From positions 1-29,154 of the IMG/VR virus record IMGVR_UViG_3300044911_002177: a stretch of 29,154 nt of DNA. The stretch is one strand, 5' to 3'. A program made the position numbers and the translations under genes. The DNA is from a virus. Below the pieces are notes generated by a model, which was not told the DNA's origin, searched no databases, and saw only the letters and a list, made by a program, of their open reading frames with translations. Positions 6,493 through 28,873 of the stretch are shown piece after piece. Numbering within the stretch: the first letter of the stretch is position 1; every line of letters begins with the position of its first letter.

Positions 6493-7152
6493 ATGGCGGA
6501 TCTTTCGCATGCCGTTAACCTAATTCGTAAATACGAAGGGTTTAACGAAAAGGCATACCCCGATCCGTCATCAGGCGGCGAGCCATACACCATCGGGTTT
6601 GGGACTCAGTTCTACCCCGATGGTTCTCCCGTCAAGCGTGGCCAGTGTTGCAGTAAGGAAAAAGCACTGGAGTATCTCTTCCATGAGGTCTCTGTTATTG
6701 ACACGCAGCTTTCAAAGCTAAACCTTGGCCTTGATGACAGCATGCGTCAGGCTTTGCTTTCATTCATTCATTCCATTGGCTGGGAGCCATTTTTGTATGG
6801 ACGAGTGATTGACTGCATTGAACACGAAGATTTTGGCGCAGCTACAGAAGAGATCGGTCGGTGGGTCTTTGATGAAGACCACCAAGTAATTGGGAGCCTG
6901 CTCCACAGGCGTCGTGAAGAATCTCATCTTTTCCTTCGGGAAGTTGGTGCCAACACCTTGTCTTCTTCCGATGTACTGCTTGCTGCATTCCGCAACTACA
7001 CTGCTGCTCCGCACCAGGTAAAAGCCATTCGCTTCCTGGAGCAGGGACTTAGCCCGTACCTTCTTGCACAGTTTGCCAACGAGTTTCGGATTGACGATGA
7101 TCCCTGGGACGATTACACCAGTGATGCCGTCAATTTGGAATTCAGCAGCTAG
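6493..7152 (+). CDS. GH24 (T4-type) lysozyme, endolysin
   Basis: I place the start at ATG 6493, giving 219 residues beginning MADLSHAVNLIRKYEGF. The upstream TTG at 6469 would put the hairpin inside the coding region. The N-terminus has the GH24 active site: Glu15 in KYEGF, Asp24 in YPDP and Thr33 in EPYTIGFGT, matching Glu11, Asp20 and Thr26 of T4 lysozyme. RRREESHLF near residue 140 matches the GLxxRRxxExxLF motif of the family. About 70 extra residues follow the lysozyme fold. It hydrolyses the MurNAc-GlcNAc bond of peptidoglycan and is the best candidate for the lysis enzyme. No signal peptide or membrane anchor is visible, so it would need a holin to cross the membrane. Confidence 0.88.
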   Translation: MADLSHAVNLIRKYEGFNEKAYPDPSSGGEPYTIGFGTQFYPDGSPVKRGQCCSKEKALEYLFHEVSVIDTQLSKLNLGLDDSMRQALLSFIHSIGWEPFLYGRVIDCIEHEDFGAATEEIGRWVFDEDHQVIGSLLHRRREESHLFLREVGANTLSSSDVLLAAFRNYTAAPHQVKAIRFLEQGLSPYLLAQFANEFRIDDDPWDDYTSDAVNLEFSS

Positions 7153-7155
7153 GCT

Positions 7156-7161
7156 TAGAAT
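7156..7161 (+). promoter_or_regulatory. -10 element TAGAAT before the NblA-like gene
   Basis: TAGAAT lies 15 nt before the ATG at 7177. TTTGGA at 7134-7139 with a 16-bp spacer is a possible -35. Initiation about 7 nt downstream would leave a leader of under 10 nt. Confidence 0.45.
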
Positions 7162-7176
7162 ACTTGCAGTAAAGAA

Positions 7177-7479
7177 ATGCAAAGCGGAATGGAGCGGTCA
7201 GTTGAACCCAGGGAATTTGAACTTCCTCTAGAACTCCAGTTTGCGATGCGCAAAGCCGAGCTTCAGGCTCAAGAGATGACCTGGGATGAGCTTCACGCCG
7301 CTTTGCTGAACCTTTACCACCAACGCTTGATGGAATGGTACGCCATTCGGGACATCATGGCGTCTGAAGACATTGAAATCGACTGGGATCACCCAACCGA
7401 CATTGAGCTAGCAGAACTCGCCGCCGCATGTTTGTACGACGACGAGGATGAGGACGAAGATACCTGTCAGCCCTTCTGA
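7177..7479 (+). CDS. NblA-like phycobilisome degradation adaptor with acidic extension
   Basis: Residues 13-62 read FELPLELQFAMRK, AELQAQEM, then LLNLYHQRLMEWYAIRDIM. This follows the NblA pattern: (L)xLExxFxLRxxExQ, Met, then LxxLYxQxMxRExxY in a second helix. NblA proteins are about 60 residues, form a helical hairpin dimer, bind phycobilisome subunits and deliver them to Clp protease. Some cyanophages carry nblA to dismantle host antennae. Here the NblA-like core is followed by about 38 residues that end in a strongly acidic stretch, which ordinary NblA lacks. The gene has its own -10 element, and its end overlaps the minus-strand DUF3310 gene tail to tail by 13 nt. The family call is by eye; a generic helical hairpin is the alternative. 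Confidence 0.55.
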   Translation: MQSGMERSVEPREFELPLELQFAMRKAELQAQEMTWDELHAALLNLYHQRLMEWYAIRDIMASEDIEIDWDHPTDIELAELAAACLYDDEDEDEDTCQPF

Positions 7480-11342: not shown

Positions 11343-14300
11343 GTGGCAAATAGAAGGATTACGGAGTTCCCGGCCATCAACGGGCTCGACATTAACGAAC
11401 AGGACCTTCTTACGTTGGTCCATGTTTTTGAAGTGGACCCTACGCTACGCAATAAGAAGATTACATTTGAGCAGTTTAAAGATTATTTAAACATCTACTA
11501 CGCCTCTACTAGTGGCACTACCTTTAGTGGCAACATTGCCATCTCTGGGAACCTAACCGTTTCTGGACTTGGTAGCTTTGGTACAATTCTTTCTTCTGGC
11601 CTCAGCACATTTAGTGGTATTGTTGTCCAAAATAATGCCGTAGTTAGTGGTACCGTAAGTGGCGCCACGATTACAGGTGCTAACCTGCAAGGCGTCAACG
11701 TCAATGCAACTACTGTTACTACAACCACTGCAACCGGCACTACAGCGTTATTTACCAGTGGTCAGTATCAATCCCTGTCTGGTGCAACAATTACCGGCGG
11801 ACAAGGCTCTTTCACTTCTGGGACGTTTGTAAATTTAAGCGGTACCTCAATCACCGGCACAACCGTAGCTGCTACTACGGGCACATTCCAAACCCTTTCT
11901 ACTCCTGTTCTTAACGTCAGCGGAAACCTTTCTGTTGCTAGTGGATTAACAGTAACGGAGACGGCACAATTTGCTGCAGGCGTACAAGTCACTGGTACGT
12001 TATCAGGCACAACAGTCACTGGTACAACGGCAAGGTTTAGCACCGTTAGCGGGGTGTCTGGTGTATTCACTACGAACCTTTCTGGCGCAACTATTACTGG
12101 TAATACGGTACTTGTTAGCAATATTACAGGAGTATCAGGAGTATTTACAACACAGGTTTCAGGTGCAACCGTCACAGGTAACACTGGTGCATTTGGAAAC
12201 GTAAGTGGTATTTCTGGTGTATTTACTCAGTTTCTTTCAGGTGCTGTAATTACTGGTGACGCTGGCCGGTTTACAGCTATTACTGGCGTATCTGGCGTAT
12301 ATACCAACCTGTCTGGTGCCGCTGTCACTGGGGATACTGTTGCGGCTACTAGCATCACTGGTGTGACTGGTGTGTTTACCAGTCGTATCTCAGGTGTAAC
12401 CGTAACCGGAACCACGGCAGCATTCACAACCATCAGCGGCGTATCCGGTGTATTTACCACAAATCTTTCTGGTGCAACTATTACAGGAGACAGTGTTCAA
12501 GCCTCTGGTTTAACTGCTGGCACTGGTAACTTTGTCCGTGTATCTGGAACAACCGTCACTGGTGATACGGGTGCGTTTACAAACCTCACTGGAATTGTAG
12601 GCGTATTTACAACAAGTGTTTCCGGGACCACCGTAATTAGCACAACTGTTACGGGTGCAACCGGTACGTTTACTTCGTTGACCGGTACCACAATTACGGG
12701 TACAACCGTCAATGCAACCACAGGTGTATTTAATACTCTTCAAGCGGTTAACTTAAGTTTTACCAATACAACGGTCTCCGGTAACTTAACAGTTGTAGGC
12801 TCTGGTTACTTTGGTTCTGGTGTTTCCGTAACAGGCACAATCAGCGGTATCACGGTTACTGGTACAAGTGGGCAGTTTACAAACATTACTGCTGACACAG
12901 CAAACTTTACAACTGCTACTGGCGTAACCGCAAGTTTCACAACCATCACTGGCGTTACTGTTACTGGCACCACTGCAAATTTTACTAGTGGCAACTTTGT
13001 CAGCTTTAGTGGTGGTACTTACATTGCCACGTCAGGTGTATTTGCATCCGGTACAGCCGCTAATCCCTCAATTTCTATTCTTGGAGACGCTGATACAGGG
13101 GTGTACTCTCCTGGTGCAAATCAACTAGCAATAACAACAAGTGGCACTGGCAGGCTGTTTGTTAACTCGGCAGGGAGAGTCGGGATTGGTACCGCTTCGT
13201 CGATTGCCCCCAGCGCCCCTCTTGACGATTTTCACATTGCGTCAACGGATCCTGCCGTTTTGTGGGAAGAAACAGACGCTGGTACTGATGAAAAATATTG
13301 GCGCATTCGTGCGGAAGGAAGCATTCTTCGTTTTGAAGGCATCAACGATGCGTTTAACGCAACAACTGCATGGTTAAACGTCACACGCACCACTGGCGCA
13401 CGCTCTGTTGACAACATTGCGTTTAGCACTGGCACTACCGAGCGTTTGCGTATTACCTCCGCAGGCAACGTAGGGATTGGCACCAGCATTGGCACTTGGA
13501 CTCCTGGAGTAACACTTGACGTGCGTTCTGGTTCCAACAACACAGCCGTCGAAGAAATTGCTGCTTTTGCACGGCCAGACGCATTAGTACGTGCATCTAT
13601 CAACAAAGGCATCGTTTCTGGTAATGGCATTTCATTTGGCACTACTACAAATCATCCGCTTGCATTAAGGACAAACGCCCTTGAAAGAATTGTCATTGGC
13701 GCTACTGGCACAACAACATTAACGTCTGACGCGTCTACTGCACCGTTAATTGTCAATATCAGCGCCAGCGAAGTAGCCCGCATCGACAGCTCCGGCAGGT
13801 TGTTGGTGGGTACAAGCGCGGCGCGGTCTTTTACTGCAGGTGCTCAGCCGGCTATTCAGATTGAGTCCGCAACACTGTCTACTGGGCTAGGGATTACAAC
13901 CAATCGCAATGATAGTGCTTGCAATGTTCTGCACTTTGGTAAATCACGATCTGGCACCTTGGGTGGGTTTGGCATTGTCTCTAGCGGAGACGCTGTAGGA
14001 GAGGTTCGTTTTGAGGCCGCAGACGGCTCTGCAATGATTCGCGCTGCGACTATCCAGGCTCAAGTAGACGGCACCCCCGGCGCTAACGATATGCCAGGGC
14101 GGCTTGTACTCTCCACGACCGCGGATGGTGCGAGCAGCCCGACGGAGCGGATGAGGATTGATTCATCAGGTCGCGTAGGGATTGGCACTACTAGCCCTTC
14201 TGCATTACTCGACGTTAACGGCACGCATGTCGAACCGGGTTCAATTAGGTTTTTTGCAAATGCGACTTCTTTCCTGGGAAACTCTATTGGCGTTTTAAGT

Positions 14301-15950
14301 GGCAACAATTTTGTATTTACACTTGGAAGCACAGAACGCGCCCGCATCGACAGCTCCGGCAGGTTGTTAGTTGGCACGTCTACTGCGCGTTCTAATTTTA
14401 CAAACAGAACCGATGTAGCGCCAGCACTTCAAGTAGAAGGACTGGCAACCGCATTGGGCGATAAAGCCATTTCCATTGTATCAAGCAGTTCTGTTACTTC
14501 AAGGGGCGCTCATTTGTATATGAGCCACCAGTTGAGCGGAACTATTGGCGGAAATACAGTACTTGGGAACAATAACCAAATTGGGTTGATCTCTTTTAAC
14601 GGCAGTGACGGGAGTGAGTTTGTAGAAGCTGCAACGATTGGGGCGTTTACTGACGGCACTCCTGGCACTGACGACATGCCAGGGCGGCTTGTACTCTCCA
14701 CGACCGCGGATGGTGCGAGCAGCCCGACGGAGCGGATGCGGATTACGTCGGCAGGTTTGATTGGGATTGGCGCCACGAACCCTGCCACATTGCTGCATTT
14801 GTCCTCAGCAACAGGCAGTGCAACGCCCACTCCCACTGAGCTAAGGATTGCAACTACAACGGTTGCATCAGATTGGTCCGTAACCAATCCATGGGGCAGA
14901 ATTAGTTTTTATAGCGAAGATGGTTCAGCTTTCGGTCCCAAAATTCATGCATCTATTGATGCGACGGCACTAACAACGGCAGGTGGAACGTCGGATATTG
15001 TATTTAGAACAAACAACAATACGAGCAATACATTAGACGCTCGAATGGTTATCAAGGGCGACTCAAGTGCTGCAGGGGCAAGGGTAGGCATTGGAACGAC
15101 AAGCCCTGGCGGAGCCCTTGAAATTCAAGCTGCTGCAACAATTCACCCTTTAATTGTTCAAGGTCCGTCGAGTGAGTTTGCCCGCATTGATAGTTCTGGC
15201 AGGTTGTTGGTGGGCACTTCTACTGCTTATGGAATCAGCGGCCTAGCAACTCCTGACGTACAACTTTCCAAAGCAAATCAGGACTCCACTCTTGCAGTGA
15301 CTGCATGGAAAGGAGACAGCAATGGCTTTAATCCAACGCTGCAATTCATGCGTTCGTATAACAATACAACGGGAACTCATACTGCTGTTCCAGATGGGGC
15401 CCGTTTAGGATCTATTCGTTTTGCTGGTTCTGATGGAACTGCTTTCTTTCCTGGCGCAGAAATTGTTGCAAATTCTGATGGTCAAACATGGGCTTCAGGA
15501 GATTGCCCAGGCCGCCTAGCATTCCTTACTACCGCCGACGGTGCGAGCAGTACGACGGAGCGGATGAGGATTACGAGTGACGGTTCAACTTTAATTGGTA
15601 CTACGAGTACGTCAGGAGCTGTTAGCAATACTTCACTTGCCGTGGCAGGAATCTTTAGAAGTATTAGCGGGGCAACCGCATCAACTGCTTCTGCAACTCC
15701 AGTCACATTGTTCGCGTTGCCTTCTAGTGGCATTGCTACATATTTTTTAACTGTAACATTATCCCCGGCTGCCGCTGCAAGCAATTATCACGCTACTTAC
15801 ATGGTTGGTTGTTCCGCCAATACTGCCGTAATTCAGCCCATAAAAGCAGGCACTTCGCTTACTGTTGCTCTAAGTGGAATGAACGTGCAGGCGACTCAAA
15901 CCAGCGGAGCAGCTCAAGTTATGAATTGGAGCGCTGTCAGGATGGCCTAG
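11343..15950 (+). CDS. Tail fibre / receptor-binding protein, 1535 aa
   Basis: A GTG start gives MANRRITEFPAINGLDINEQDLL, an N-terminus typical of cyanophage tail fibres and probably the tail-attachment part. Residues ~55-580 are Gly/Thr/Ser/Val repeats of about 25 residues built around SGATITGDT and GVSGVFTT. These suggest a fibrous beta-helix. From ~580, repeats change to the type SSGRLLVGTS and TERMRIDSSGRVGIGTTSP, interleaved with unique segments such as DADTGVYSPGANQL. The last ~95 residues form a distinct cap starting IFRSISGATAS and ending MNWSAVRMA. There is no S74-type intramolecular chaperone. It should bind the host surface. The repeats are also near-identical at the DNA level in places. 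Confidence 0.85.
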   Translation: MANRRITEFPAINGLDINEQDLLTLVHVFEVDPTLRNKKITFEQFKDYLNIYYASTSGTTFSGNIAISGNLTVSGLGSFGTILSSGLSTFSGIVVQNNAVVSGTVSGATITGANLQGVNVNATTVTTTTATGTTALFTSGQYQSLSGATITGGQGSFTSGTFVNLSGTSITGTTVAATTGTFQTLSTPVLNVSGNLSVASGLTVTETAQFAAGVQVTGTLSGTTVTGTTARFSTVSGVSGVFTTNLSGATITGNTVLVSNITGVSGVFTTQVSGATVTGNTGAFGNVSGISGVFTQFLSGAVITGDAGRFTAITGVSGVYTNLSGAAVTGDTVAATSITGVTGVFTSRISGVTVTGTTAAFTTISGVSGVFTTNLSGATITGDSVQASGLTAGTGNFVRVSGTTVTGDTGAFTNLTGIVGVFTTSVSGTTVISTTVTGATGTFTSLTGTTITGTTVNATTGVFNTLQAVNLSFTNTTVSGNLTVVGSGYFGSGVSVTGTISGITVTGTSGQFTNITADTANFTTATGVTASFTTITGVTVTGTTANFTSGNFVSFSGGTYIATSGVFASGTAANPSISILGDADTGVYSPGANQLAITTSGTGRLFVNSAGRVGIGTASSIAPSAPLDDFHIASTDPAVLWEETDAGTDEKYWRIRAEGSILRFEGINDAFNATTAWLNVTRTTGARSVDNIAFSTGTTERLRITSAGNVGIGTSIGTWTPGVTLDVRSGSNNTAVEEIAAFARPDALVRASINKGIVSGNGISFGTTTNHPLALRTNALERIVIGATGTTTLTSDASTAPLIVNISASEVARIDSSGRLLVGTSAARSFTAGAQPAIQIESATLSTGLGITTNRNDSACNVLHFGKSRSGTLGGFGIVSSGDAVGEVRFEAADGSAMIRAATIQAQVDGTPGANDMPGRLVLSTTADGASSPTERMRIDSSGRVGIGTTSPSALLDVNGTHVEPGSIRFFANATSFLGNSIGVLSGNNFVFTLGSTERARIDSSGRLLVGTSTARSNFTNRTDVAPALQVEGLATALGDKAISIVSSSSVTSRGAHLYMSHQLSGTIGGNTVLGNNNQIGLISFNGSDGSEFVEAATIGAFTDGTPGTDDMPGRLVLSTTADGASSPTERMRITSAGLIGIGATNPATLLHLSSATGSATPTPTELRIATTTVASDWSVTNPWGRISFYSEDGSAFGPKIHASIDATALTTAGGTSDIVFRTNNNTSNTLDARMVIKGDSSAAGARVGIGTTSPGGALEIQAAATIHPLIVQGPSSEFARIDSSGRLLVGTSTAYGISGLATPDVQLSKANQDSTLAVTAWKGDSNGFNPTLQFMRSYNNTTGTHTAVPDGARLGSIRFAGSDGTAFFPGAEIVANSDGQTWASGDCPGRLAFLTTADGASSTTERMRITSDGSTLIGTTSTSGAVSNTSLAVAGIFRSISGATASTASATPVTLFALPSSGIATYFLTVTLSPAAAASNYHATYMVGCSANTAVIQPIKAGTSLTVALSGMNVQATQTSGAAQVMNWSAVRMA
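14091..14153 (+). repeat. 63-nt exact direct repeat in tail-fibre gene, copy 1
   Basis: This stretch encodes the end of MPGRLVLSTTADG and the run to TERM. It is identical base for base to 14676-14738, 585 nt downstream and in the same frame. A diverged third copy is near 15500-15575. Confidence 0.9.
14676..14738 (+). repeat. 63-nt exact direct repeat in tail-fibre gene, copy 2
   Basis: Identical to 14091-14153. A second pair of exact repeats, 29 nt long, lies at 13776-13804 and 14340-14368. Recombination between copies would delete or add fibre modules in frame. Confidence 0.9.
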
Positions 15951-16583: not shown

Positions 16584-16625
16584 TTCGGTACACCTGACTT
16601 AGAGTTGATAAAAAGCTCTAGGTCG

Positions 16626-17738
16626 ATGTCTATTAAACTTGTTGACGCGGCACGTTATTTCAAAGAAGAGCCCCATCAAATCGATGCGTGGAATTGGCTC
16701 CAGGCTCAGATTCCTTCTGAGGCCCTGGAGTCTTTTGCTACTAAGTATCGCACCGAGCCAAAACCTGTAGTCACTTACCTTAATACTTGGGAAGGTGTCA
16801 TGAAAGCAGGAAAAGATGCTGGTGCAAAATACCCTGAATGTGTTGCTGCCCAATGGGCGCTCGAATCAAACTGGGGTAAAAATACTTCAGGCACACACAA
16901 CTACTACGGCCTTAAAGGATCTGGCACAACGGTTAATACTCAAGAATTCATTAACGGTCAATGGGTAACAATAAAAGCCGGGTTTATTGACTTTCCAGAT
17001 CTCTATACCTGTACTTGTTACTTAGTTGATCGCTGGTATAAAGACTACGGCACATACAAAGGTGTTAACCGTGCCACAAGTAGGAATAACTGCGCCAATT
17101 TGTTGGTTACCGAAGGATACGCTACAGATCCCGGCTACGCAACAAAATTAATTCAGATCATGGATCGACAGCTTGGTACTCCAGGCGTCAATGCAACGGA
17201 TTTAACAACTGCCAAAACTCTGTCTGTACCTTACTTCTATCAACTTGATAATCAATCTGGCACGGGATACCGCGAATGTTTTTCGTCAAGTTGTGCAATG
17301 ATCGCAGCTTATTACGGTTTGGTTAAGTCGGATGATGAGTACAATAAAATCCGTTCCAAGTACGGAGACACTACAGATAAAGACGCCCAGTTAGCAGCGT
17401 TACGATCCTTGGGACTCAAGCCAACTTTTATTACAAACGGCAATGCCGCATTATTGGAAAATGAGATTCGCAATGGCAGGCCCGTAGCTGTTGGTTGGCT
17501 GCACCAGGGCAATGTAAACTACCCTACTGGTGGCGGGCACTGGACTTGCTGCGTTGGTTTCTCTGCTGATTACTTTGTGCACAACGACCCAAACGGCGAG
17601 GCAAATATGGTAAACGGTGGGTACGTCAGCAATTCGGCTGCACGTGGCAAAGATGTAAAATACAGCCGCAAAAATTGGCTGCGCCGTTGGGAATGCGACG
17701 GTAACAATACAGGTTGGGCAATTACCGTAGCAAAGTGA
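16626..17738 (+). CDS. Two-domain peptidoglycan hydrolase: GH73 glucosaminidase + C39-like peptidase
   Basis: I choose ATG 16626; the upstream TTG at 16605 lies in the promoter region. Residues ~65-185 form a glucosaminidase/muramidase domain (GH73 type), with catalytic Glu80 in QWALESNWGK, the NYYGLKGSG segment and GYATDPGYATKLIQIM. Residues ~200-345 form a C39-type cysteine peptidase: YRECFSSSCAMIAAYYG with Cys218, GGHW with His305 and HNDPNG with Asp321 as the likely triad. A short basic end follows. The enzyme could cut both the sugar chain and the peptide cross-links. There is no signal peptide. A second endolysin or a virion-borne hydrolase are both possible. The stop overlaps the next start (GTGA). 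Confidence 0.85.
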   Translation: MSIKLVDAARYFKEEPHQIDAWNWLQAQIPSEALESFATKYRTEPKPVVTYLNTWEGVMKAGKDAGAKYPECVAAQWALESNWGKNTSGTHNYYGLKGSGTTVNTQEFINGQWVTIKAGFIDFPDLYTCTCYLVDRWYKDYGTYKGVNRATSRNNCANLLVTEGYATDPGYATKLIQIMDRQLGTPGVNATDLTTAKTLSVPYFYQLDNQSGTGYRECFSSSCAMIAAYYGLVKSDDEYNKIRSKYGDTTDKDAQLAALRSLGLKPTFITNGNAALLENEIRNGRPVAVGWLHQGNVNYPTGGGHWTCCVGFSADYFVHNDPNGEANMVNGGYVSNSAARGKDVKYSRKNWLRRWECDGNNTGWAITVAK

Positions 17739-28567: not shown

Positions 28568-28585
28568 ATGTTTTTAAACATAAAC

Positions 28586-28873
28586 ATGACACGCGACAAT
28601 TTTGGTGGCCGCCCTGGCAAACCTTCAATCAATAAACCCAGCTCTGGTGGCGGCGGCAAAGGTAAAGGTAAAGGCTCTGCTACCCCTTCAATTAACAAAC
28701 CTAGCTCTAGCAGCGGTGGCAAAGGTAAAGGCTCTGCTACCCCTTCAATTAACAAACCTAGCTCTAGCAGCGGTGGCAGAGGTAAAGGCCCTGGCAACCC
28801 TTCAATTAACAAACCTAGCTCTAGCAGCGGCGGTGGCAAAGTTAAAGGTAAACCCGGTGCACCTACATGGTAA
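28586..28873 (+). CDS. Low-complexity repeat protein with PSINKPSS units, 95 aa
   Basis: The ATG at 28586 is preferred; the ATG at 28568 overlaps the promoter. The protein begins MTRDNFGGRPGKPSINKPSS and has four units PSINKPSSSSGG followed by KGKGSAT-like Gly/Lys linkers, ending GKPGAPTW. The period is 19 residues in the last three units. It is basic, disordered and of no known family. Gly/Ser/Lys repeats with Pro suggest binding of nucleic acid or a linker role. It closes the small basic gene group. Confidence 0.65.
   Translation: MTRDNFGGRPGKPSINKPSSGGGGKGKGKGSATPSINKPSSSSGGKGKGSATPSINKPSSSSGGRGKGPGNPSINKPSSSSGGGKVKGKPGAPTW
28622..28855 (+). repeat. Tandem 57-nt repeat encoding PSINKPSS units
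   Basis: Units begin at 28622, 28685, 28742 and 28799 (spacing 63, 57, 57 nt). The second and third units are almost identical base for base, and the first differs most, which suggests recent in-frame duplication. Confidence 0.88.

Follow-up and report, generated by a model that had tools for sequence, protein, structure and literature searches.

A probable remote homologue of NblA with a conserved C-terminal bridge, a variable acidic linker and a conserved tip in an S-EIV1-like cyanophage

Introduction

NblA delivers phycobilisomes, the light-harvesting antennae of cyanobacteria, to the Clp protease. It has been described as an adaptor of ClpC (PMC7966870), and binding to ClpC has been reported for a motif near its N terminus, and binding to phycobiliproteins for one near its C terminus (PMC4103541). 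Phage-encoded NblAs are already known from Ma-LMM01, MaMV-DC, PaV-LD, S-TIM5, S-SCSM1, cyanopodoviruses and uncultured marine phage (Nadel et al. 2019), and expression of several of them in cyanobacteria has been reported to bring about a loss of phycobilins (PMC9602691). A 2017 survey lists the S-EIV1 group as being without nblA (PMC5332604). On the host side, Synechococcus WH8102 is noted to carry a divergent nblA-like gene, and Prochlorococcus to carry no such gene (PMC7439483).

The gene described here lies in a window of 29,154 nucleotides, the whole stretch of viral DNA that was analysed, and like the NblAs above its product is phage-borne. The protein shares with NblA (PF04485; Anabaena structure 1OJH) an ungapped helix-loop-helix core of 50 residues with the same helix boundaries, an L-x-L-E-x-x-F start, and the pattern L-x-x-L-Y-x-Q in helix 2. 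It differs in scoring below the Pfam cut-off, in the replacement of K-H-x-W-G-L, and in 38 extra residues made up of a bridge helix, an acidic linker and a tip. The NblAs of S-TIM5 and S-SCSM1, in contrast, are about 54 residues long and have no tail, and the candidate in P-SSP7 has an extension unrelated to that of the window protein. What the window protein would add to the known phage NblAs is a variant with a conserved bridge, a variable linker and a conserved tip.

Two other systems bear on this C-terminal region. In SspB, the ClpX adaptor of proteobacteria, the folded dimer that binds the substrate is joined by a flexible linker to a short C-terminal peptide that binds ClpX. The window protein may be likened to it in layout only, as a folded domain followed by a flexible linker and a short, conserved, putative docking peptide at the C terminus, whereas its tip does not have the basic residues of the XB type. 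The C-terminal tip of single-stranded DNA-binding protein (SSB; EDEIPF in hosts, x-P-F in phages) is similar in that P-F comes after an acidic run and lies at the C terminus or close to it; the NblA-like tip differs in that one more residue separates P-F from the acidic run, and in not being strictly terminal in three groups.

Results

The gene and its genomic setting

The reading frame at positions 7177–7479 (plus strand) was found as the original prediction had stated, and encodes 100 amino acids from Met1, or 96 amino acids from an alternative start at Met5 (7189). That the gene is real is shown by low dN/dS ratios and by the presence of over 80 distinct homologues on contigs of phages. Pairwise dN/dS over residues 13–62, for pairs with unsaturated dS, was 0.02–0.08, and the NblA-like core is under strong purifying selection. 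One scan of IMG/VR yielded at least 396 candidate stretches with homologues and another yielded 510; 63 distinct sequences and about 25 further ones were inspected. The first residue common to all clades of the phage family is Met5, and position 1 is a GTG codon in some relatives, so the start may be either Met1 or Met5.

The upstream neighbor is a phage lysozyme (PF00959, E 3.4e-16; 6493–7152, plus strand), which ends 24 nt before the NblA-like gene, in agreement with the prediction that the gene directly follows a lysozyme. This neighbor is invariant: a lysozyme was immediately upstream at all loci with enough flanking sequence (158/158), and the NblA-like gene was downstream of all 36 close lysozymes. 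The order of HNH nuclease, large ORF, lysozyme, NblA-like gene, two convergent small genes and dCTP deaminase is that of Synechococcus phage S-EIV1 (KJ410740), and on this synteny the window is assigned to an S-EIV1-like cyanophage. The S-EIV1 orthologue, AHV82245.1, has 65% identity over 81 aligned residues and is annotated only as "hypothetical protein". A search of Rfam detected no RNA family near the gene.

The −10 element that had been proposed for the gene is a TAGAAT at 7157–7162 (plus strand), which is conserved among relatives and can be retained as a putative promoter. The same hexamer is kept upstream of nearly all homologues, those of S-EIV1 and the marine relatives among them, and a few have TAAAAT instead. 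In S-EIV1, 18 of the 128 genes are preceded by TA[AGT]AAT at a distance of 15–45 nt, compared to a mean of 1.5 at random positions, an enrichment that is approximate because the random positions include coding sequence. A generic sigma-70 promoter scan performed no better on the real sequence than on shuffles. Conservation and enrichment together support the interpretation of TAGAAT as a phage promoter element, and the spread of TA[AGT]AAT through the S-EIV1 genome suggests many single-gene promoters of one type.

Homology of the core to NblA

Residues 13–62 (7213–7362, plus strand) follow the NblA pattern, as predicted. PF04485 was the sole credible Pfam match of the window protein, covering residues 15–61. 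The HMM search proposed as a check thus returned the expected family at E 8.6e-5, but the score of 23.3 bits lies under the gathering cut-off of 25 bits, and the protein falls outside formal PF04485 membership. Ten relatives scored singly gave 16.1–23.6 bits or no match, all below the cut-off and with the most divergent unmatched, and 23 of 32 diverse family members matched at E ≤ 1. When whole phage records were searched, the gene that matched PF04485 best was the NblA-like one, both for S-EIV1 and for two further records (G004 and G005). The NblA structure 1OJH was also the top PDB sequence match, with E 0.017 for the single sequence, and 0.0017 and 0.00084 with profiles.

Profile-profile comparison, the more sensitive of the proposed checks, bore the prediction out: with hhalign, a profile of 32 phage proteins aligned to one of 18 host NblAs over 50 columns without a gap (residues 13–62 against NblA 4–53; E 7.9e-7, probability 91.7%). 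An HMM built from host NblAs, run against six-frame ORFs of five cyanophages represented by complete or partial sequences, ranked the S-EIV1 orthologue first, though weakly (E 0.027), above the S-TIM5 and P-SSP7 candidates. In an AlphaFold2 monomer model, helices were predicted at residues 18–32 and 36–63, which correspond to 9–23 and 27–54 in NblA numbering (offset 9); a control model of a Nostocales NblA had helices at 9–22 and 27–55. The helical-hairpin part of the structural prediction is thus upheld. The pLDDT values, in blocks, were 74–88 over residues 11–60, and the alignment supplied for the window protein contained phage relatives only.

Other searches contributed little. Foldseek against PDB and BFVD, together with VIA-align, retrieved no NblA and nothing usable; for Foldseek this is uninformative for such short hairpins, because the model of the genuine NblA used as a control also missed 1OJH. 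PHROGs and NCBIfam gave weak or unrelated matches only, and tblastn with an NblA query found no match in the phage records, the known phage NblAs having been obtained through accessions and the HMM. The Pfam and 1OJH matches, the profile-profile alignment, the placement of the helices and the synteny with S-EIV1 support an NblA-like adaptor domain in a cyanophage, and we regard it as highly probable that the window protein is a remote homologue of NblA.

Departures from canonical NblA

In a diverse set, host NblAs were invariant at L7, E10 and F13 (and L34), and the window protein has all four, as L16, E19, F22 and L43. Relatives are less strict at two of these positions. Glu19, equivalent to NblA Glu10, is replaced by Gln in the S-EIV1 clade and by His in a marine clade, and the same marine clade has Leu in place of Phe22 (NblA Phe13). 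The C-terminal L-L-K-H-x-W-G-L region of NblA is absent from the window protein, in which the aligned residues 60–66 read IMASEDI, and the third helix of the phage protein has no NblA counterpart. Short host proteins of the NblA2 type (51 aa) also do not have the WGL end, so its loss alone does not exclude a function in phycobilisome breakdown.

The C-terminal module

An acidic tail of about 38 residues not found in ordinary NblA had been predicted. The extension itself, residues 63–100, is confirmed as such, being missing from about 40 distinct host NblAs of 51–66 aa. Its acidic character holds for a run of Asp and Glu at about residues 88–95, but not for the whole tail, which also includes a helix (75–89) and a tip (96–100). 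Three parts can be distinguished. The bridge, residues 63–87 (7363–7437, plus strand), is conserved as ENIEIDWDxPTDLELAELAAxC, forms most of the predicted helix 75–89, and replaces the C-terminal end of host NblA. The acidic linker, residues about 88–95 (DDEDEDED; 7438–7461, plus strand), is hypervariable in sequence and length among relatives, and its end is predicted to be disordered. The tip, residues 96–100 (TCQPF; 7462–7476, plus strand), has the consensus [DE]-L-Q-P-F and is a candidate docking motif.

Among the 69 distinct genes of the window's clade, every one encodes QPF as the last three residues, although the Pro is written with four different codons and the Phe and the Gln with two each. 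The preceding residue is Leu in 63; it is Cys in the window protein. The linkers between bridge and tip in these same genes are of 34 different kinds, 10–15 aa in length. Other clades end in L[ASTV]PF, YIPF, CSPF, CQPF, ISPF or [FY]S[VIF]F, and in three groups P-F is internal rather than C-terminal (TPFFG, DPFAPLA and DPFLS). A plain acidic solubility tail was rejected as an explanation, as the tip stays constant in genes whose linkers diverge. An unchanging tip on a spacer that varies suggests instead a tethered short linear motif, in which the tip would serve for docking.

Two further cases concern such tails. Searching 300 genomes of one picocyanobacterial family with the phage-type profile gave a single match, a distant homologue of 102 aa with the tail DTDEEDPFLS (L390:5402–5710; genome G394, contig C41). 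Its contig of 8.2 kb also carries rhomboid-like, trigger-factor-like and nuclease-like ORFs, so that the gene may be cellular or belong to a mobile element rather than to a phage. In P-SSP7, the cyanopodovirus ORF PSSP7_019A (L347:13741–14052) gives a weak match to the host-NblA HMM, and its C-terminal extension, about 40 residues long, is of another kind, suggesting that phage NblAs may have acquired tails on separate occasions. Separately, the SSB genes of the S-EIV1-like lineage (L340–L346; 29657–30466 in S-EIV1) were all seen to encode P-F ends after an acidic or mixed stretch, like host SSB tips.

NblA in the potential hosts

Among 101 sampled genomes of one picocyanobacterial family (that of genome G187), none had a PF04485 match above the cut-off and four had weak matches, and phycobiliprotein genes were present in all ten members tested; the family is one of small genomes with full phycobiliprotein sets, and may include genomes with few phycobiliproteins. 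We assume that the host of S-EIV1, being a picocyanobacterial Synechococcus, belongs to this family. An adaptor supplied by the phage would then fill a gap, as the tested members have phycobiliprotein genes and no sampled genome has an NblA over the cut-off. The virus may supply an activity that its hosts do not have, or have only in very divergent form.

Discussion

The interpretation that we favor, with moderate confidence, is that the window protein is a divergent NblA of a phage lineage that promotes phycobilisome loss via Clp and has gained a C-terminal docking module. The helical-hairpin domain, presumably dimeric, would be made during infection by S-EIV1-like phages and act as an adaptor for the Clp protease, binding both Clp and phycobilisomes, and promoting the disassembly and Clp-dependent degradation of the latter. 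Their breakdown would free amino acids and lower light absorption. The fused C-terminal module, consisting of the conserved bridge helix, a flexible acidic linker tolerant of changes in length, and a hydrophobic x-P-F tip, would function as a tethered docking motif.

Resemblance by chance, in which a phage protein unrelated to NblA happens to form a helical hairpin and carries an acidic tail for solubility, is very improbable. Short helical proteins easily give weak profile scores, and every score was below the Pfam cut-off, but the ungapped alignment of 50 profile columns at E 7.9e-7, the position of NblA at the top of both the Pfam and the PDB searches, and the agreement in helix placement all argue for common descent, as does the setting in a virus of cyanobacteria; a conserved tip would, moreover, be needless in a mere solubility tail. 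It is conceivable, although unlikely, that the NblA fold has been re-aimed, with the hairpin engaging Clp and the replaced C-terminal half picking other cargo or blocking the adaptor site, so that host proteolysis would be redirected or inhibited in infection. The retention of the helical core while the C-terminal NblA motif has given way to a new conserved module is consistent with this, as is the reported separation of the ClpC-binding motif near the N terminus from the phycobiliprotein-binding one near the C terminus (PMC4103541). However, NblA2-type host proteins of 51 aa do not have WGL either, and any alternative cargo is hypothetical.

The partner of the tip raises a further alternative. 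A Clp chaperone is the candidate that we favor by analogy with SspB, and the rival is a tip that imitates the SSB tail: with its acidic run and terminal P-F it might occupy the pockets in which replication and repair proteins normally hold the C terminus of SSB, and either recruit these proteins to Clp or compete with SSB itself. Of the two SSB paralogues of host type, one usually has EDEIPF or similar at its end, the SSBs of six phages of the S-EIV1-like lineage end in x-P-F (EEPF, EVPF, EIPF, ELPF, HEPF) and that of a seventh in KEPF, and the NblA-like tips end in LQPF, LxPF, CSPF or ISPF, with one EEEYIPF in a phage whose own SSB ends in DEIPF. The likeness is incomplete, however. Terminal P-F is found in most clades of the NblA-like protein, but within [DE]-L-x-P-F as opposed to [DE]-x-P-F in SSB; the residue before P-F is polar in most clades, compared to Ile, Val, Leu or Glu in SSB; and some clades end in FSVF. 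In the TPFFG, DPFAPLA and DPFLS groups the aromatic residue is not C-terminal, yet KEPF is retained at the end of the SSB in the TPFFG phage, and a C-terminal P-F is not very rare in any case. We therefore consider an SSB-like tip quite improbable, and a strict identity with the SSB tail was not accepted, as P-F is internal in three groups.

With either candidate as the partner, one may tentatively picture a modular protease adaptor in which an NblA hairpin has had its C-terminal half replaced by bridge helix, acidic tether and x-P-F tip, the second partner being a Clp chaperone or SSB-binding replication proteins; we regard this broader proposal as possible but doubtful. If it were true, phages could degrade antennae, or new cargo, in picocyanobacteria without a canonical nblA. 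The pairing of a variable linker with a fixed tip would represent a compact adaptor design, useful for understanding how Clp adaptors choose their partners. S-EIV1-like phages occur widely in freshwater and in the sea, and an NblA among them would mean that phage-driven phycobilisome loss reaches a lineage for which no nblA has been listed (PMC5332604).

Three other ORFs in the window were noted. A 1535-aa ORF at 11343–15950, in which a TGVSGVFTTxLSGATITG-like unit is repeated in long runs, probably encodes a tail fibre. The ORF at 16605–17735 combines a glucosaminidase domain (PF01832) with a C39-like peptidase domain (PF13529), and a small ORF at 28568–28873 is built from tandem repeats of the SINKPSSSSGGKGKG type.
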